Below, one piece after another: positions 50,756-59,399 of a DNA stretch of 64,000 nt; the stretch's first letter is position 1; each line of letters begins with the position of its first letter. Source of the DNA: Alphaproteobacteria bacterium (GTDB lineage: Bacteria; Pseudomonadota; Alphaproteobacteria; Rhizobiales; Rhizobiaceae); assembly GCA_024742485.1 (NCBI GenBank), contig JANSYK010000002.1:1736001-1800000 (forward strand). The letters are read 5' to 3'. The translations under genes and the position numbers were made by a program. Below the pieces are notes generated by a model. It saw nothing but the letters and a program-made list of their open reading frames with translations, did not search any database and had not been told where the DNA came from.

Positions 50756-50774
50756 GTTTAGAACTATTCTAAAC
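50756..50774. promoter_or_regulatory. Irr box (iron control element) upstream of bfd-bfr
   Basis: GTTTAGAACTATTCTAAAC is a perfect dyad with arms GTTTAGAA/TTCTAAAC and a CTA spacer. It fits the iron control element bound by the haem-responsive regulator Irr in Rhizobiales (TTTAGAA-N3-TTCTAAA). It lies 131 bases upstream of bfd, in line with iron control of the iron-storage genes. Irr itself is not in the window. Confidence 0.85.
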
Positions 50775-50904: not shown

Positions 50905-51216
50905 ATGATCACGTGTCATTGCAACATCATCACCGAACAGGATCTCGAGCAGCAGATCATCGCGATGCTCGATGAGGACTGCTGGCAGTTGATCGTCCCG
51001 GTCAAGCTTTACCACGCCATGGAAAAGCGTGGAAAATGTTGCCGTTGTTTCCCCAATGTCATAGACATCATTATCCGCACGACCGAGGCATACCACGCGC
51101 GCTTTGACCGGCGCGAGGCGGAGATGCTTCCTTTTCGCGAAAAACTGCATCAGATGCGCAACCGCTACATAGGGGAATTTCATGAAAGGCAACGCAAAGG
51201 TCATCGAGCGGCTTAA
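50905..51216 (+). CDS. bfd: Bacterioferritin-associated ferredoxin-like protein
   Basis: A 103-residue protein whose N-terminal domain has the Bfd 2Fe-2S pattern: CHC (residues 4 and 6) and, about 40 residues later, CCRCFP. The C-terminal half is a charged helical extension beyond the usual ~65-residue Bfd. Bfd reduces bacterioferritin so that stored iron is released. The gene overlaps bfr by 35 bases and lies under the Irr box. Confidence 0.85.
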
Positions 51217-51667
51217 CGAGGCGCTGTTCCTGGAACTTGGTGCGGTCAACCAGTACTGGCTGCATTACCGGTTGCTGGATGACTGGGGTTACAAGAAGCT
51301 TGCCGACAAGGAAAAGGCCGAATCCATCGAGGAAATGCACCACGCTGACAAACTGATTGAGCGGATCATTTTTCTGGAAGGACACCCTAATCTGCAGACC
51401 GTCGGCGATCTGCGTATTGGCCAGAACGTCAAGGAAGTTCTCGAGGCCGATCTCGCCGGTGAATATGATGCTCGGACCTCCTACATCAAATCGCGTGAAA
51501 TCTGCCGCGAAGAGGGTGATTATGTGACGATGGCTCTGTTTGAGGAACTGGTGGCCGACGAGGAGGGGCACATCGACTTCCTCGAAACCCAGCTCGAACT
51601 GCTCGGCAATCTCGGTGAAAAGCACTACGGACAGCTCAATGCGGGCTCAGCCGACGAGGCAGAATAA
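51182..51667 (+). CDS. bfr: Bacterioferritin
   Basis: A 161-residue ferritin-like four-helix protein. The diiron ligands are visible: E18, E51 and H54 (EMHHAD), E94, E127 and H130 (EEGH). The haem-ligand methionine would be M52 in EEMHHAD. It stores iron in a 24-mer. It overlaps bfd, with a shared Irr box upstream. Confidence 0.94.
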
Positions 51668-51691: not shown

Positions 51692-51719
51692 AACGCGGCA
51701 ATCTGGCGATTGCCGCGTT
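51692..51719. terminator. Bidirectional terminator between bfr and omp gene 1
   Basis: Arms AACGCGGCAAT (51692-51702) and ATTGCCGCGTT (51709-51719) around CTGGCG, with A-rich sequence before and TATTGTTT after. It can end transcription from bfr (plus) and from the first outer-membrane gene (minus). Confidence 0.8.
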
Positions 51720-51746: not shown

Positions 51747-53003
51747 TCAGTAAAGCTTCAGCTTGGCACCAACCCGCACCGTGTGGCTCGACGGATCAAC
51801 CGTCGTCAACGCACCCAGATTGATATCTTCATAGCGGGTATAGCGGTATTCCACATAGCCGGTGATAGTATCGCTGAGCACGAATTCGGAGCCGGATCCG
51901 ATCGAAAATCCGTTGACGCCGACGCTGGTCGAAATTGCCGGTACGGAAATGGATGCAGACAATTTCTGCCAGGAATATCCACCGATCAGATAGCCCAGCG
52001 TGTGGTCGTTGAACTTGCGTCCCACACGCAACAACGCATCAAAGCCGAAATCGTCGGCCGCAGCTGAAACGGTGATGCCCGCGGCAGTGGCTGAACTGGA
52101 TGCCTCGATATATTCAGCGGCAAGGACAACACCGGCAAGCCATCGCTCACCGAATTCACGATCATAACCGATATTGATTTCACCGAGATATCCCTCCGTC
52201 GCCAGACCGTCATAGGTGGCGCCCCCGGTGGTGGTGAACTTGTTGATGGCCACACCAAGACTGAAGGCCGCGCCAACCTTGAGGCCGGACCATTCATAGG
52301 CAATCGGATCGCGGCTTTGCCCGGAAGGTCCGCCGCCAAACCGGTAATTCAGGCTGGAATGAAAGGCGTGGGTGACCGGATCGATGCTGGCGCCGCCGAA
52401 ACCGGCGATGCTGGCACCCGAATAGCTCGAATAGCGGTATTCCGATGCCCAGGTCCAGTTGTTGCGAAAGGCGGTTTCCGTTCCGATTCCAACAACATAG
52501 CCATTGTCGTCCCAACTTCCGGCAACCAGATGAGAGGAGGATGACAGCTTGAAATGCTGCCAGCTATAGCCGCCAAGCACATAGGCCAGGGTTCGCGGTG
52601 TGATTGCGTAGCCAAGCCGCCCGATGACATCGACACCGTAATCGGCGGTCACGGTCCCGTTGAACGGAATACCGGGAACAGACCAGGACGTGTCCACATC
52701 GCCGTAACGCCCGCTGACGGATGCGCCAACGACAACGCCATTGGAAAAAGCATGGTCGTATCCCACGGTCAGTTTGCCGAAATAGCCCCGACCGCCAATT
52801 CCGGATATTGTGGTTCCAAGGATGGGGGCCGTTACCTCATCGATGATGAGCCCGGTTCCGCCGCCAATCCCGATCCAGACACCGCTCCAGTCATAGAGTC
52901 CGTCCTGGCTGTTCAATGGTTGAAAATAGTCCGATGCGGCAACCGGGCCTGAAACGGCCATCGAAGCCATAAGGGCGGTCAAAATCCTGTAAACCATTGC
53001 CAT
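51747..53003 (-). CDS. Two-repeat outer-membrane beta-barrel protein 1
   Basis: A 418-residue exported protein. After a signal peptide (ending PVAAS) come two related ~190-residue repeats: YDWSGVWIGIGGGTG to SSLNYR, and YEWSGLKVGAAFSLGVA to the C-terminal aromatic KLKLY. Each repeat contains GYSWQ and EYRYS/T, marks of the Omp25/Omp31-like eight-strand barrel. It is the most divergent of four neighbours. ATG 53003 is chosen because AAGG lies upstream and the signal peptide fits; a longer frame begins at 53042. Confidence 0.85.
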   Translation of the reverse strand: MAMVYRILTALMASMAVSGPVAASDYFQPLNSQDGLYDWSGVWIGIGGGTGLIIDEVTAPILGTTISGIGGRGYFGKLTVGYDHAFSNGVVVGASVSGRYGDVDTSWSVPGIPFNGTVTADYGVDVIGRLGYAITPRTLAYVLGGYSWQHFKLSSSSHLVAGSWDDNGYVVGIGTETAFRNNWTWASEYRYSSYSGASIAGFGGASIDPVTHAFHSSLNYRFGGGPSGQSRDPIAYEWSGLKVGAAFSLGVAINKFTTTGGATYDGLATEGYLGEINIGYDREFGERWLAGVVLAAEYIEASSSATAAGITVSAAADDFGFDALLRVGRKFNDHTLGYLIGGYSWQKLSASISVPAISTSVGVNGFSIGSGSEFVLSDTITGYVEYRYTRYEDINLGALTTVDPSSHTVRVGAKLKLY

Positions 53004-53099
53004 AAACTGCCTTGGAATATCGTCCGTCACCCACTCCTTCATAAGTCATGAGGCACAACAATGGAAGCCGGTTTGAGTTCGTGAAGCAAAAACTGCGAC

Positions 53100-53128
53100 A
53101 AAAAAAACGGCGGTCAGATGACCGCCGT
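53100..53128 (-). terminator. Terminator of omp gene 2
   Basis: On the minus strand ACGGCGGTCA and TGACCGCCGT (53107-53128) form a stem followed by a run of T (the A-run at about 53100-53106). It lies 28 bases after the stop of gene 2. The hairpin core is nearly the same as that after gene 3. Confidence 0.88.
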
Positions 53129-53155
53129 CCTTTGTCCCGGATTGTCCGAATCCGA

Positions 53156-54412
53156 TCAGTAGAGCTTCCATTTCGCGCCGACCCGAACCGAATGATCCGA
53201 CGGATCAATGGTGTTGGCGGGCGTGACATTGTAGTCCTGATAGCCGGAGTAGCGATACTCCACAAAGGCGCTCAGTTTTTCGCTCAATGCAAACTCCGTA
53301 CCTGTTCCAATGGTAAAGCCGCTGACACCGGTACTATTGGAGCCTGTACCGGTAATCGTCGTCGACATCTTCTGCCAGGAATAACCGCCGATCACGTACC
53401 CGACAGTCTGGTCGTTGATTTTGCGGCCAATCCGCAGCATCGCGTCAAACCCGAAATCTTCTGTCTTCGACACCAACGAACCTACAGACACTAGCTGGCT
53501 TCTTCCGCCATCATATCCGGCCGCCAGGACGATACCGCCGAGCCACTTTTCCCCGAACTCGCGGTCATATCCGACATTGACTTCCGCCAGAAAAGCTTCG
53601 TTGGACATTTTGTCCAGGACCGTGCCCACACCTGTGACCTTGTTAAGCGCTACGCCAAGGCCCAGGGAACCGCCAACCTTGAGACCGTTCCAATCATGAA
53701 TGACCGGAGCCATGGTCTGACCCGATGGGCCACCGCCGGGGCGGTAGTTCAGGCTTGAATAGAAGGAGTGGACAACGGGATCGATGCTACCGCGATAGGT
53801 CGGAATTCCTTCGCTTCCATAATTCGCGTACCGATATTCCGATGACCAGGTCCAGTTGTCCCTAAATGCGGTTTCAGTCCCGATACCGACAACGTAACCG
53901 CTTGAGCCCCAGTTTTGGGAAACCGCCGGCGCCGTTCCAGAGAGCTTGTAATGCTGCCAGCTGTACCCGCCGAGAACATAGGCTAGTGTTTTGGGTGTGA
54001 TGGAATAACCCAATCGCGCAACGACATCGAAACCATAATCGGCCTCGATCTCCACACTGGATCCTGCGCTGGCTATCGAAGTATCAGCATCGCCATACCG
54101 CCCGAGTACGGATGCGCCTACGACGACACCATTGGCAAGCGTGTGATCGTAACCGGCTGTGAGAGTACCAACATATCCGCGATCGCCTATGCCCCCGAAG
54201 CTGGCTCCGCCGAATACAATCGGCAGGCTTAACCGATTGTTCATCATGGTTGTTCCAAAGCCGAGTCCCACACGCAATCCGGTCCAGTCGTAGATGCTAT
54301 CTTCGCTGATTAGAGGTGCGGATGGTACGGGCGCCACGTAAAGATCGGCGGCTGTTGCCGGGACCAATATTGCAAGCGATGCCATTGTGGCAGCTGTTAT
54401 CTGAAAGCGCAT
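53156..54412 (-). CDS. Two-repeat outer-membrane beta-barrel protein 2
   Basis: A 418-residue protein with a signal peptide (ending VPATAAD) and two barrel repeats joined at GGGPSGQTMAPVIHDWNG. Repeat 1 has VLGGYSWQHYKLS, repeat 2 VIGGYSWQKMSTT; both have EYRYA/S. It ends in KWKLY, with the aromatic C-terminus recognised by the BAM complex. It is closest to protein 3. ATG 54412 starts the signal peptide; the upstream GGGACGACAG acts as a weak ribosome site. Confidence 0.9.
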   Translation of the reverse strand: MRFQITAATMASLAILVPATAADLYVAPVPSAPLISEDSIYDWTGLRVGLGFGTTMMNNRLSLPIVFGGASFGGIGDRGYVGTLTAGYDHTLANGVVVGASVLGRYGDADTSIASAGSSVEIEADYGFDVVARLGYSITPKTLAYVLGGYSWQHYKLSGTAPAVSQNWGSSGYVVGIGTETAFRDNWTWSSEYRYANYGSEGIPTYRGSIDPVVHSFYSSLNYRPGGGPSGQTMAPVIHDWNGLKVGGSLGLGVALNKVTGVGTVLDKMSNEAFLAEVNVGYDREFGEKWLGGIVLAAGYDGGRSQLVSVGSLVSKTEDFGFDAMLRIGRKINDQTVGYVIGGYSWQKMSTTITGTGSNSTGVSGFTIGTGTEFALSEKLSAFVEYRYSGYQDYNVTPANTIDPSDHSVRVGAKWKLY

Positions 54413-54454
54413 GATTTCTGTCGTCCCCGATTTGGTATTGTGATTCCCCATTCA

Positions 54455-54460
54455 GTTATA
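54455..54460 (-). promoter_or_regulatory. Probable -10 element of omp gene 2
   Basis: TATAAC on the minus strand, 43 bases from the ATG at 54412, the same distance as TATAAT before gene 3. A -35 at 17-base spacing (54478-54483, TATCAA) is weak, which suggests activator dependence. Confidence 0.45.
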
Positions 54461-54491
54461 GCGCGCGGGTTGTCATATTGATATGGCCGTC

Positions 54492-54509
54492 TGTGGCGTT
54501 GCAGCCACA
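54492..54509. promoter_or_regulatory. Conserved dyad upstream of omp gene 2
   Basis: TGTGGC-GTTGCA-GCCACA is a perfect dyad 80 bases upstream of the ATG. The same element with one arm mismatch is exactly 80 bases upstream of gene 3. A regulator site just upstream of the -35 region is likely; the regulator is unknown. Confidence 0.65.
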
Positions 54510-54599
54510 ACCGGTGCAATTCCAAAGGACAGTCACAGTGATCAATCTGACCCGACTGGTCTTTCTTTGATCGACAATCACAGTTGATAAGAATCACAA

Positions 54600-54627
54600 A
54601 AAAGGGCGGTCAGATGACCGCCCTTTT
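54600..54627. terminator. Terminator of omp gene 3
   Basis: AAAAGGGCGGTCA and TGACCGCCCTTTT (about 54600-54627) form a symmetric stem with T-runs on either strand, 23 bases after the stop of gene 3. Confidence 0.85.
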
Positions 54628-54649
54628 GTTTCGGATCAACCGAACCCGA

Positions 54650-55915
54650 TCAGTAGAGCTTCCATTTTGCACCAACACGAACCGAATGATCGGACGGGTC
54701 AACGGTAATGGCCGGTGTGACATTGTAGTCCTGATAACCGGAGTAGCGATACTCAACAAAGGCACTCAGCTTTTCGCTCAGGGCGAATTCCGAACCCGTT
54801 CCGATGGTAAAGCCGCTGACGCCAGTGCTGTTCGTTCCGGTTCCGGCAATCGTTGTTGACATCTTCTGCCAGGAATAACCGCCGATGACATAGGCAAGTG
54901 TCTGGTTGTTGATTTTGCGGCCGACACGAAGCATGGCGTCGAATCCGAAATCTTCCGTTTTCGCAATTGAAGCGCCACCAGTACTGACCAATTGGCTCCT
55001 TCCGCCGTCATATCCCGCGGCCAGGACAACGCCACCAAGCCACTTGGCTCCAAATTCGCGGTCGTAACCGATATTGACATCCGCCAGAAACGCTTCATTG
55101 GACATTTTGTCAAAGACTGTGCCGCCCGTGGTTGTGATCTTGTTAAGCGCGACACCGATGCCGAGCGCTCCACCAACCTTCAGGCCGTTCCAGTCATGAA
55201 TGACGGGTGCCATGGTCTGCCCCGACGGGCCGCCGTTGGGCCGGTAATTAATACTTGTGTAGAAGGAATGGATAACCGGATCGATATTGCCACGCCAGGG
55301 CGTGACACCTTCGCTACCGTAATTCGCGTAGCGATATTCCGATGACCACGTCCAGTTATCCCGAATTGCGGTCTCGGTTCCGAACCCGACCACGTAACCG
55401 CTTGCGCCCCAATTCTGTGAGACCGTCGGTCCGGTTCCGGACAGTTTGAAATGTTGCCAACTGTAACCACCGAGCAGATAGGCCATTGTCCTGGGCGTAA
55501 TCGAATAGCCCAGGCGACCGACCACATCGAAACCGTAATCGGCCTTGATCTCGGCAGATGTTCCACCGCCGGTTACCGAAGTATCTGCATCGCCGTATCG
55601 GCCCAAAACCGATGCGCCGACGATCACCCCATTGGCGAGGGCATGATCATAACCCGCCGAAAGCGTGCCGACAAACCCGCGGTCCCCAAGGCCGCCAATT
55701 GTTGTTGAACCCGCCGCCAGCGCCGGAGCGCGGAGGTAATTGTTCATCATGGTCGTTCCGAAGCCGATACCAACACGGAAGCCGGTCCAGTTGTAAACGC
55801 TTTCTCCGCTGATAATCGGTGCGGGCGGCTCCGGCGCGATATAAAGGTCCGCCGCCGTGGCTGGAACTGTAACGGCCAGTGATGCCGCGATGATGGCTGT
55901 GATACGCTTGCTCAT
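54650..55915 (-). CDS. Two-repeat outer-membrane beta-barrel protein 3
   Basis: A 421-residue protein with a signal peptide (MSKRITAIIAASLAVTVPATA). Its two repeats align with each other at WTGFRVGIGFG / WNGLKVGGALG, YGFDVVGRLGYSI / FGFDAMLRVGRKI, GGYSWQHFKLS / GGYSWQKMSTT and IDPVIHSF / VDPSDHSV. It ends in KWKLY. It and protein 2 share most residues, pointing to a recent duplication. Confidence 0.92.
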   Translation of the reverse strand: MSKRITAIIAASLAVTVPATAADLYIAPEPPAPIISGESVYNWTGFRVGIGFGTTMMNNYLRAPALAAGSTTIGGLGDRGFVGTLSAGYDHALANGVIVGASVLGRYGDADTSVTGGGTSAEIKADYGFDVVGRLGYSITPRTMAYLLGGYSWQHFKLSGTGPTVSQNWGASGYVVGFGTETAIRDNWTWSSEYRYANYGSEGVTPWRGNIDPVIHSFYTSINYRPNGGPSGQTMAPVIHDWNGLKVGGALGIGVALNKITTTGGTVFDKMSNEAFLADVNIGYDREFGAKWLGGVVLAAGYDGGRSQLVSTGGASIAKTEDFGFDAMLRVGRKINNQTLAYVIGGYSWQKMSTTIAGTGTNSTGVSGFTIGTGSEFALSEKLSAFVEYRYSGYQDYNVTPAITVDPSDHSVRVGAKWKLY

Positions 55916-55957
55916 TGGTTCGGTCGTCCCCGATTAGATGATATAAACTCGATTCCA

Positions 55958-55963
55958 ATTATA
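55958..55963 (-). promoter_or_regulatory. Probable -10 element of omp gene 3
   Basis: TATAAT on the minus strand, 43 bases upstream of ATG 55915 and matching the position in gene 2. Confidence 0.5.
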
Positions 55964-55994
55964 TGATGCGAATGACCAAATGGAAACCGAACTC

Positions 55995-56012
55995 TGTGGC
56001 GTTGCAGCAACA
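55995..56012. promoter_or_regulatory. Conserved dyad upstream of omp gene 3
   Basis: TGTGGC-GTTGCA-GCAACA, the partner of the element before gene 2, again 80 bases from the start codon, with one arm change. Sequence outside the element differs between the two promoters. Confidence 0.6.
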
Positions 56013-56104
56013 ATGGAGACAAATCGGCGGTCTGTTTTCGGGCACTTGATCAGCTAATGCAACCGTCGAACTGCCCTGGCAACCCATGTGTTTCACAAAC
56101 GAAA

Positions 56105-56130
56105 AAGCGGCGATCTGGAGATCGCCGCTT
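56105..56130 (-). terminator. Terminator of omp gene 4
   Basis: AAGCGGCGATCT and AGATCGCCGCTT form a stem with loop GG; on the minus strand it is followed by TTTTTC. It lies 26 bases after the stop of gene 4. Confidence 0.8.
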
Positions 56131-56156
56131 GTCAATTGCCGGATAGGAAATTGGGG

Positions 56157-57404
56157 TCAGTACAATTTCCATTTCGCACCGACGCGCACCGAATGGCTGG
56201 ACGGATCGACATTGAATGCTCCGACTGTATAGTCCTCATATCCGGTATAGCGGGTTTCGACATAGGCTGTGAGCTTTTCGCTGACGGCGAATTCGAGGCC
56301 CGTTCCGATGGTGAAACCATTGACGCCGGTGTTGTTTGAAGCAGCGCCGATCGTGCCGGTCATCTTCTGCCAGGAATAGCCGCCGATCACGTATCCCAAT
56401 GTCCGGTCACCGAAAATCCGACCGGCGCGGACCAGCGCATCGAACCCGGCGCTCTCGGTCTTGGCCACCGCACCGGTGCCCCCATATACCAGCGCGCTTC
56501 TGCCGCCATCATATCGGGCCGCAAGGACGACACCGCCCAACCAATGACCGCCGAACACCCGGTCGTAGCCAACATTGGCTTCGGCAATGAAAGCCTCATT
56601 GGACATGCTGTCGAAACCGACCGTACCGGTCACTTCGTTCAGCGCAACACCGAGACCCAAAGCGCCGCCGACCTTGAGACCGTTCCAGTCATAGATGACA
56701 GGTGCCGCGGTCTGACCAGACGGGCCGCCATTCAGCCGGTAGTTCAGGCGTGTGTGAAAGGAGTGAATCACCGGATCGATACTGCCACCATAGGCGGCGA
56801 TGGACTGGCCACCATAATTGGCATAGCGGTATTCCGACGACAGCGTCCAATTGTCATGGATGGCCGACTCGGTGCCGAAACCAACGATGTAGCCGTTTTC
56901 GTTCCAGTTCGTGGAGACCGCAGGGGTGGTTCCGGTCAGCTTGAAATGCTGCCAGCTATAACCGGCAAGCGCATAGGCAAGGGTTCGCGGGGTCAGGGCA
57001 TAACCGACCCGCCCGACAACATCGATCCCGTATTCAGCGGTGATCTGACCGGACCAGCTCGCGACACCTGACCAGTTGGCGTCGATATCGCCCCAGCGGC
57101 CATTCACCGACCCGCCGACAACAATGCCATTGGCAAGGGCATAGTCGTAACCGGCCGTCAATTCACCGAAATAGCCGCGTCCGCCAATACCGCCGAACGA
57201 GTTTGTTACGGTACCGGTGGTGACCTGATTGTTCGACAGCGCGGTGCCCGCGCCAAGACCGAAATAGAGCCCTGACCAGTCATAGACCGGAACACCGCTG
57301 ACCAGCGGAGCCGGGTCAGCGCTCGGAACATAGATGTCTGCTGCCATGGCCGGTACGGATACCGACAGTGTTGCCACGATCGCGGCTGTGATTCTTTTGC
57401 TCAT
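56157..57404 (-). CDS. Two-repeat outer-membrane beta-barrel protein 4
   Basis: A 415-residue protein of the same family: signal peptide MSKRITAAIVATLSVSVPAMA, repeat 1 with ALAGYSWQHFKLT, linker GGPSGQTAAPVIYDWNG and repeat 2 with VIGGYSWQKMTGT, ending KWKLY. Its upstream region lacks the dyad seen before genes 2 and 3. ATG 57404 starts the signal peptide; an in-frame ATG nine codons upstream is less likely. Confidence 0.92.
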   Translation of the reverse strand: MSKRITAAIVATLSVSVPAMAADIYVPSADPAPLVSGVPVYDWSGLYFGLGAGTALSNNQVTTGTVTNSFGGIGGRGYFGELTAGYDYALANGIVVGGSVNGRWGDIDANWSGVASWSGQITAEYGIDVVGRVGYALTPRTLAYALAGYSWQHFKLTGTTPAVSTNWNENGYIVGFGTESAIHDNWTLSSEYRYANYGGQSIAAYGGSIDPVIHSFHTRLNYRLNGGPSGQTAAPVIYDWNGLKVGGALGLGVALNEVTGTVGFDSMSNEAFIAEANVGYDRVFGGHWLGGVVLAARYDGGRSALVYGGTGAVAKTESAGFDALVRAGRIFGDRTLGYVIGGYSWQKMTGTIGAASNNTGVNGFTIGTGLEFAVSEKLTAYVETRYTGYEDYTVGAFNVDPSSHSVRVGAKWKLY

Positions 57405-57731
57405 TGTCCTCGTCGTCCCGTTTTGAAACATGACCGGAACGCTAGGAAGGGCCTGGTTTACAACTCCTTAAGGCATCTATTAGGATTCTTCGCATTACGG
57501 CCCACAACAAGCACGCCGAATCGGTCGTCAAAGGCCGGGTTTGTTGGCTCCGGGCAGATCAGCGGACGATCGGTGACAGATGCCGGCCGCGTAACGCAAA
57601 ATACAATACTGGTAAACCGAATCTTAACGGATGGCTGAGTTTTTCGCACCAGGGATCGGGTGCATGACGCGCTTGTGATTTCGGCCGCCTGTGTCTTCGC
57701 GTCATAGTTGGCTGAACGATTGAGCTGACCT
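57405..57731. other. Divergent gap of 327 bases between omp gene 4 and the secreted propeller protein
   Basis: No coding frame or RNA gene can be supported. GTCGTCCC close to omp gene 4 (about 57411-57419) recurs before genes 2 and 3 and probably serves as their ribosome-site region. Promoters for both flanking genes should be here, but I cannot place them. Confidence 0.5.
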
Positions 57732-59399
57732 GTGACAATGCAAAAACACGCCATGTTTCGACCCCTTCTGGGCTTGTCCCTCCTATTCCTTTGTGTTGTC
57801 GGGAGCTTCCCATCTTTTGCAGCCAAACTTCAGGTTCTGGCGCGCCCCGGACCCTGGCCCGTTGCAGATCGGTTGATCGTCTATCGGAACAAAGTCTGGT
57901 TTTCGACAGCTGTCAAAGGGGTCGACCACAATTCGGCAGATATCTGGAGTTTCGATCCAAGCACGCGAAAGCTGCATTTTGAGCGTTATCTTTTCTCGCA
58001 AGACACCGGGCATCCGGTTGTGCATGGCGGTCTGCTCTATTGGCCGCACGAGGATATGCGGATCGGACTGGGCGCTGGCATCGTCAGTGTGACCAATGGT
58101 CAAGATTGGCGCGATCTGGCGATTCCGTCCGGTGATCACATGATGCACACCCACGCGATTGCCGAGTGGAAGGGAGACCTGGTCGCAGCCATGGCCGGCT
58201 GGAACAGTGTCCTGGCGTTGTCGCAGGATGCCGGCAGGCGCTGGCGCCCCCTCGTCAATGACGCCCCGAAAAGCGGTGCATTCCATCGCTACAATGATAT
58301 CGCCGCGCTCGGCGACCGGCTCTTTGTTCGTCACTGGCAGACCACCGGCCTTTCCCTCGCCGAGTACCGTGACGGAAAAGTGGTACCGGTCGAGGGGTGG
58401 CCGGACAACAGTTCCTTCTCCGGCTTCACCCGCTTTGGCGAAGCGCTCTATGTGCTCCTTGACCGGGAAGGCCGGAAAACCGAACTGTGGCGCATCGATG
58501 GTGAAGGGCCGGCCCGGGTCGATGTCGAGCCCGCCGATCTGACAATGCGCCAGTTGGTCAGTGATAACGATCGCTTGTGGATTGTCGCCGGCACGAATGA
58601 TGGCGGTCAGCTCTGGTCCAGCGCCGATAGCTCAGTGTTCACGCCGGGTGACCGGTTTCACGGTGGCATATCGCACAGTGCAGTAGCGGTGGCGCCTGGT
58701 TCAATCTACGTGGCAGGTGAGGGGATCGACGGACGGTCCATATTATGGGGACCGCCGGCGCAGGCGATCACGAAGCCAGCCTCACCTCCACCATTGCCAC
58801 AACAGGCAGCGGAGCCGGAAACGAACTTCGATGCCGTGGTTGAGAAGGAGCGGATTGCGCGGATATTGGAAAACGTGGAGAGCTACCAGTCACACGGTCG
58901 CCCCTTGCGCGAAGCGCTCCAGGCGGCCCTGGAGGAAGGACCTGGCCTGGGCTTTTTTACATCTCTTCTGGCTGTGCCCGCACCGCAGCAGGAGATTGAA
59001 ATATTCGGCGGCCGCACAACGGTATCAGCGCCGGAAATGGCGAAATGGCATATCCTTGCGGCGATGGCCCGAAATGGTGAAAAATCCGTGCCGACCGGTT
59101 ATCTCAGCGCCGCGTGGAGCCGCCCGTCGAACCGGCCGCAGAAATGGTTCGATCCTCTGCTGATTTCCATTTATGCGATTCAGGTGACCGGGCAGGACGA
59201 CCGGGCAACGGTCAATGCGCTGATTGATCGGCTTGACCAGCCGACGGATCCCGACTGGTTGACGTCGCAGGTGACCGGAACCCTGACGGCCATCACCGGG
59301 AAACCCTTTGCCTATGACAGCGCGGCCTGGAAGGCCTGGTGGATATCGGCGAAGAGCGCATGGCGAGCGCGGCCCGGTATACGCAATGCGGCTGACTAA
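57732..59399 (+). CDS. Unknown secreted protein: propeller-like N-terminus, helical C-terminus
   Basis: A 555-residue protein with a signal peptide (ending FPSFAA, about residue 30). Residues ~35-345 show repeated strand patterns such as RLIVYRNKVWFST, DLVAAMAGWNSVLALSQDAG and RLWIVAGTNDGGQLWSSADS, like sialidase or BNR-type beta-propellers. A proline-rich linker (PASPPPLPQQAAEPE) leads to a helical domain of about 190 residues with AWWISAKSAWRARP at the end. I do not recognise the family. The start is GTG 57732 or ATG 57738. The stop overlaps the convergent YciI gene. Confidence 0.75.
   Translation: MTMQKHAMFRPLLGLSLLFLCVVGSFPSFAAKLQVLARPGPWPVADRLIVYRNKVWFSTAVKGVDHNSADIWSFDPSTRKLHFERYLFSQDTGHPVVHGGLLYWPHEDMRIGLGAGIVSVTNGQDWRDLAIPSGDHMMHTHAIAEWKGDLVAAMAGWNSVLALSQDAGRRWRPLVNDAPKSGAFHRYNDIAALGDRLFVRHWQTTGLSLAEYRDGKVVPVEGWPDNSSFSGFTRFGEALYVLLDREGRKTELWRIDGEGPARVDVEPADLTMRQLVSDNDRLWIVAGTNDGGQLWSSADSSVFTPGDRFHGGISHSAVAVAPGSIYVAGEGIDGRSILWGPPAQAITKPASPPPLPQQAAEPETNFDAVVEKERIARILENVESYQSHGRPLREALQAALEEGPGLGFFTSLLAVPAPQQEIEIFGGRTTVSAPEMAKWHILAAMARNGEKSVPTGYLSAAWSRPSNRPQKWFDPLLISIYAIQVTGQDDRATVNALIDRLDQPTDPDWLTSQVTGTLTAITGKPFAYDSAAWKAWWISAKSAWRARPGIRNAAD

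Follow-up and report, generated by a model that had tools for sequence, protein, structure and literature searches.

Four consecutive genes on the minus strand of the window (the whole 64,000-nucleotide stretch of Rhizobiaceae DNA analysed here) encode proteins in which one barrel unit of the OMP_b-brl family occurs twice. We suggest that each gene quite probably specifies a covalent pair of eight-stranded barrels, that the pair goes back to an old doubling in Rhizobiaceae, and that its likeliest role is a structural one at the cell surface. The tandem array described in the initial annotation is real and lies at 51747–57431, with products of 421–431 aa. Its members, all on the minus strand, are P0001 (51747..53042, 431 aa; repeat 1 at about 52338–52934, repeat 2 at about 51750–52304), P0002 (53156..54451, 431 aa; repeat 1 at about 53738–54340, repeat 2 at about 53159–53710), P0003, the protein that was modelled (54650..55915, 421 aa; repeat 1 at about 55235–55846, repeat 2 at about 54653–55210), and P0004 (56157..57431, 424 aa; repeat 1 at about 56730–57332, repeat 2 at about 56160–56705). 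For P0004 the start was earlier put at 57404; that position is an in-frame ATG, nine codons into the 56157–57431 frame. All four reading frames are intact, and each product begins with a stretch that, read by eye, resembles an export signal.

The OMP_b-brl model (PF13505) matches two stretches in every one of these proteins (E ≤ 1), and all four pass its cut-off of 28.7 bits with whole-protein scores of 59.9–69.7 bits. A typical member of this family has one barrel per chain, from which P0001–P0004 depart with two repeats; with two complete barrel repeats in one chain, they fit in repeat number the multi-barrel outer-membrane proteins (OMPs). In NCBIfam, where a dedicated Omp25 model may not exist, no model reached its cut-off for any of the four, and a sequence search of the PDB gave no match at E ≤ 1. 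Within the 6.87 Mb genome the only matches to P0003 at E ≤ 0.01 were P0001–P0004, itself included. A plasmid collection yielded 23 records at E ≤ 1e-5; in two of them, each 22.5% identical and annotated as TonB receptor, the match spans at least 80% of the query. Divergent from the array lies a plus-strand ORF of 555 aa (57732–59399) without a Pfam match at E ≤ 0.001.

The earlier proposal that the halves of each chain are homologous, the same unit twice over, was borne out by alignment, BLASTP, hhalign and profile scores. N- and C-terminal halves are 26–31% identical in an eight-row alignment; BLASTP, with the eight halves as its database, gave E values of 6.4e-18 to 1.4e-31 for 16 of 16 N–C pairs; hhalign matched N to C halves with 99.7% probability across 181 columns; and the real halves scored 74–101 bits against the profile, versus −2.5 to 7.6 bits for reversed halves. 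The motifs cited in support of the repeat largely hold up: GYSWQ occurs in both halves of all four proteins and GGPSGQ is present in all four, but EYRY is found in both halves of just three, the second half of P0004 having ETRY instead. GGPSGQ falls within the linker, which in P0003 comprises residues 227–243 (55187..55237, minus strand), bounded in the model by the final strand of repeat 1 and the opening strand of repeat 2. Measured between fixed landmarks, the linker is 17–19 residues long in 112 Rhizobiaceae proteins and 18–25 in 16 others.

Two arrangements had been envisaged for such a chain, two linked barrels or one barrel of sixteen strands; indirect evidence favours the former over the latter, and we consider two barrels per chain likely. 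An AlphaFold2 model of P0003, built with 16 sequences (pLDDT 77.4, pTM 0.73), has eight strands in residues 45–224 and eight in 244–419 after short breaks are joined, together with two short extra strands (38–41 and 230–235); prediction of the whole chain thus models both halves, and not just one, as eight strands. A single-sequence model of P0001 reached a pLDDT of 31.5. When the P0003 model was compared with the PDB by Foldseek, larger barrels among the best 50 of 926 matches had TMq values of 0.18–0.31 and rmsd values of 12–27 Å. An OmpA entry among the matches listed had a TMq of 0.33 (rmsd 12.2, 241 columns), barely above the best large-barrel score among them (0.31) and about what one matching half would be expected to give. 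Since a genuine barrel of 12–16 strands would be expected to score much higher against such entries, well over 0.3, we read the model as two barrels, a topology that is deduced from the scores. The C-terminal strand signal of repeat 1 is kept across the 112 Rhizobiaceae repeats, with Tyr in 111 and the closing Phe in 103; the closing Phe is found in 142 of 144 single barrels (167 collected, less 23 whose last residue was none of F, Y, W, L and V). In the window, repeat 1 has the closing Phe in P0001 only, with Pro in P0002 and P0003 and Leu in P0004. Repeat 2 of the 112 proteins usually extends one residue past the expected closing aromatic, this final residue being Asn in 86, Tyr in 12 and Phe in 8.

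Covariation leans weakly to two barrels, in a manner that depends on the set of sequences. In the method control with 144 single barrels, the seven hairpins were recovered (3.3–8.1); strands 1–8 scored only 2.4 there, and the non-neighbours 2–8 scored 6.5. Strands 1–8 reached 2.86 in repeat 1 alone, versus 3.33 for the best non-neighbour pair, and 4.77 in repeat 2 alone, versus 3.82. With 60 proteins, strands 8–9 (3.05) exceeded both 1–8 (2.79) and 9–16 (1.43); with 128 proteins they exceeded 9–16 in three of three settings, but not 1–8, and another run gave 3.31 for the cross pairing versus 3.57 and 3.39 within the repeats. Among 112 two-repeat proteins (the 128 less 16 taken out by locus id: L083, which is divergent, and 15 belonging to other families), strands 1–8 of repeat 1 (3.15–3.50) exceeded both cross-repeat pairings in six of six settings and the pairing within repeat 2 (2.35–3.72) did so in five of six, with registers 273 and 272 in all settings; this subset and the widened strand limits, the latter in use from the single-barrel control onward, were picked after the 60- and 128-protein results were known, and unrelated cross-repeat pairs in it score as high as 4.5. 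A swap test with couplings from the 144 single barrels gave a z of 2.49, inside the null range of −2.60 to 3.14.

The same data bear on a single barrel of sixteen strands, in which the duplicated eight-strand unit would open and its halves join as one pore, the natural counterpart of an OmpX duplication. This we regard as unlikely, despite a precedent in an engineered OmpX duplication that, going by the title of the report, gives a functional pore (Arnold et al. 2007; PMC6340704). The strand 8–9 covariation in some runs (above both 1–8 pairs at 3.05, and 3.31 elsewhere), the nearly constant linker length of 17–19 and the loss of the closing Phe of repeat 1 from three of the four window copies would fit such a pore, but the TM scores against larger barrels are low among the best 50 of 926 matches, within-repeat pairing wins 11 of 12 comparisons in the 112 Rhizobiaceae proteins, and 103 of their 112 first repeats keep the Phe. 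A natural 16-stranded pore that arose by whole-barrel duplication of an eight-strand OMP and became fixed across a bacterial family is improbable; if true, it would represent an evolutionary step so far shown by engineering OmpX.

Two-repeat homologues, for which a search in other Rhizobiales had been proposed, do occur in many genomes of the order. A two-repeat model matched 38 of 394 sampled family genomes and 15 of 109 genera at E ≤ 1e-40; among the 38 are the genome of the window itself, G004 with a broken copy, G334 with a fragment and G305 with a divergent pair. Main-clade members in intact form are present in 13 of the 15 matching genera. One genus, with mostly 6–8 Mb genomes, had matches in 76 of 146 genomes at E ≤ 1e-60, and smaller genera had them in 8 of 10, 3 of 4, 2 of 10 and 2 of 4. 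Order-wide, 33 of 397 genomes matched at E ≤ 1e-30, several of these matches being single barrels. Named relatives, among them Hoeflea poritis, Nitratireductor sp. XY-223, Flavimaribacter sediminis and Mesorhizobium sp. Root552, come from a set of 12 loci out of 74 pattern matches, one of the 12 being broken and another a single-repeat match in Sphingomonas. A P0001-like gene adjoins a P0002/3-like gene in G003, and two double-barrel genes stand in tandem in G001.

A FastTree tree was built from 153 repeats, representing 60 two-repeat proteins, one three-repeat protein and 30 single ones, without six ORFs that carry partial repeats. In it, 44 first repeats (R1) form one clade (support 99), and 44 second repeats (R2) together with two single rows form another (support 97), both standing apart from the other 28 single rows; this split into an R1 and an R2 clade points to one old doubling in Rhizobiaceae. 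Elsewhere in the tree, the first and second repeats of a given lineage are mutual nearest kin in f20 (four proteins, support 98), f28 (four proteins, 95), L094 (100), L099 (99) and L101/L116 (98); in L024 all three repeats group with one another (100). This pattern suggests that the other doublings and one tripling were independent, although conversion between halves would produce the same pattern and the tree program flagged long branches meeting in f20 and f28; it was not seen in the tree for L083 and L103–L105. Within a chain the repeats occur as complete units, in twos or threes; this, like the separate R1 and R2 clades, counts in favour of linked barrels.

Within the array, protein comparison and the tree uphold the order of relatedness first described, with P0002 and P0003 closest, P0004 further and P0001 most distant. 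P0002 and P0003, originally called close copies, are so in protein (80% identity) but not at synonymous sites (Ks 1.37; Ka/Ks 0.09); the other three pairs computed, of a total of four out of six possible, have Ks values of 1.78–2.31 and Ka/Ks values of 0.12–0.15. The array did grow, as had been supposed, and its growth lies long ago (Ks 1.37–2.31). Each of the four genes has a hairpin with a T run on its 3′ side: terminator-like hairpins from a scan follow P0004 (56105..56130, minus strand) and P0003 (54600..54627, minus strand), one identified by eye and absent from the scan list follows P0002 (53107..53128, minus strand), and one lies between P0001 and the neighbouring bfr gene (51692..51719), listed by the scan on the plus strand and with a T run also on the minus strand by eye. 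The scan found 12 terminator-like sites on both strands of the region, versus 6.5 in shuffles. Hairpins after P0002 and P0003 have the core GGCGGTCATCTGACCGCC in common, so the duplicated unit probably included its terminator.

Because Ks is high and Ka/Ks low, the copies are old and the array does not suggest antigenic switching. A tandem antigen family providing phase or antigenic diversity, as raised in the initial annotation, is very improbable: there are indeed four tandem copies, and outer-side residues change faster than strands (Ka/Ks 0.91 between the modelled strands of repeat 1 in P0002/P0003, over only 14 codons), but overall Ka/Ks is 0.09–0.15 at Ks 1.37–2.31 in the four of six pairs computed, and all four frames are intact. 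The neighbourhood raises another alternative. Tail-to-tail with P0001 lie a bacterioferritin gene (bfr; 51182..51667, plus strand; PF00210) and an ORF without a Pfam match (50905..51216, plus strand) that, from its sequence, we take to be a probable bfd, for bacterioferritin-associated ferredoxin. Nine genomes from two genera (G000, G001, G003, G005, G006, G007, G026, G151 and G220) have a convergent bfd or bfd-bfr immediately downstream of a double-barrel gene; in G003, G006 and G007 bfd alone was found there. Neither gene turned up beside the array relative of G002, beside the second loci that G005 and G007 possess, or in the other genera, whose loci were examined over at least 700 bases and mostly about 1.5 kb of downstream sequence; with bfd/bfr found in two genera only, a conserved operon context across relatives was rejected. 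As convergent genes are not one transcript, a function common to the array and bfd/bfr is no more than a possibility.

Upstream of bfd-bfr, at 50757–50773, the window contains the perfect palindrome TTTAGAACTATTCTAAA, which is presumably an Irr-type iron control element. When up to three mismatches are allowed, it occurs twice in the window, versus 0.6 expected (13 of 100 shuffles had as many), and neither occurrence lies upstream of an array gene. An iron link of the array through this palindrome was rejected, as 50757–50773 precedes bfd and not an array gene. A haem- or iron-handling surface protein tied to bfd/bfr would agree with the downstream position of these genes in nine genomes and with the single-barrel relatives in other Rhizobiales that are said to bind haem; we nonetheless think it improbable, for bfd/bfr are convergent and therefore not co-transcribed with the array, were not found beside the examined loci of other genera, and neither of the two window matches to the palindrome precedes an array gene.

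Single Omp25/RopB-type proteins serve as a model for the role of the array proteins, and by this analogy the likeliest role would be structural and surface-exposed, in envelope packing or in lipid or ligand contact, and not that of a large open pore; the suggestion of a new channel class met with no sign of a pore in this analysis. For the favoured pair of barrels, the chain would be exported by its signal peptide. Outer-membrane barrels are inserted by BAM, which would also insert the double-barrel chain. Strand 1 would pair with strand 8 within repeat 1 and likewise within repeat 2, closing each as a barrel of its own, and the two barrels would probably stand side by side with the short linker on the periplasmic side. 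In Rhizobiaceae a single old duplication inside the gene would have given rise to both barrels, and R1 and R2 would since have diverged into distinct, separately conserved types, making each chain a fixed hetero-pair of Omp25-like barrels. The gene would then have been duplicated to four copies in this lineage, with a terminator-like hairpin behind each, and purifying selection would keep them.

The names Omp25, Omp31 and RopB denote single eight-stranded OMP_b-brl (PF13505) barrels; each array repeat is one such unit and aligns with single barrels along its length, whereas the array proteins have two units per chain and R1 and R2 clades of their own. To our knowledge, solved barrels are one per chain. 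Eight-stranded units reportedly prevail among the multi-barrel OMPs surveyed by Solan et al. in PNAS in 2021, and are said to come from lineage-specific fusion and amplification; the array proteins likewise combine more than one barrel unit in a chain, but differ from those OMPs in being an old doubling, intact in 13 genera sampled from one family, and in forming a four-gene array. The architecture, at first thought unusual, is of a known kind, since many genomes of the order carry two-repeat relatives and the available text of two papers cites OMPs with several barrels on one chain as known (PMC11494523, PMC8592465); it is less ordinary in being old, in spanning many genera, in forming a four-gene array and in having a three-repeat relative. 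GfcD/YjbH, in the same available text, also has two barrels on one chain, of 12 and 13 strands with a periplasmic middle domain (PMC11494523, PMC8592465), whereas the array proteins have eight-strand units and lack such a domain. The engineered OmpX duplication, as its title presents it, is similar in that an eight-strand barrel is copied in tandem (PMC6340704), but the array proteins are natural, diverged and provided with a linker, and the evidence favours two barrels. A literature search, with most subscription journals outside it, found no title or abstract naming this two-repeat family, and absence from print is not claimed. Together with its single, triple and further double relatives, a doubled barrel maintained in many genera makes a natural series in which one can ask how BAM handles two barrels per chain and whether a duplicated barrel can give rise to one larger pore by merging.

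Several relatives vary on the two-repeat form. L228 (145–1638), L229 (111–1901) and L318 (295–1593) encode further two-repeat OMP_b-brl proteins, outside the two-repeat set behind the tree and covariation. A broken two-repeat copy is present at L012 (G004), also L044: a TGA lies inside one piece of the two, and repeat 1 lacks about 20 profile positions. The two repeats of L025 (2609–3697, a locus cut by a contig end) have a nearly identical stretch in common, NIPGAPLSLDAQPEWTAA, as if from recent copying within the gene. At L024 (916–3030), a protein of 704 aa carries three PF13505 stretches.
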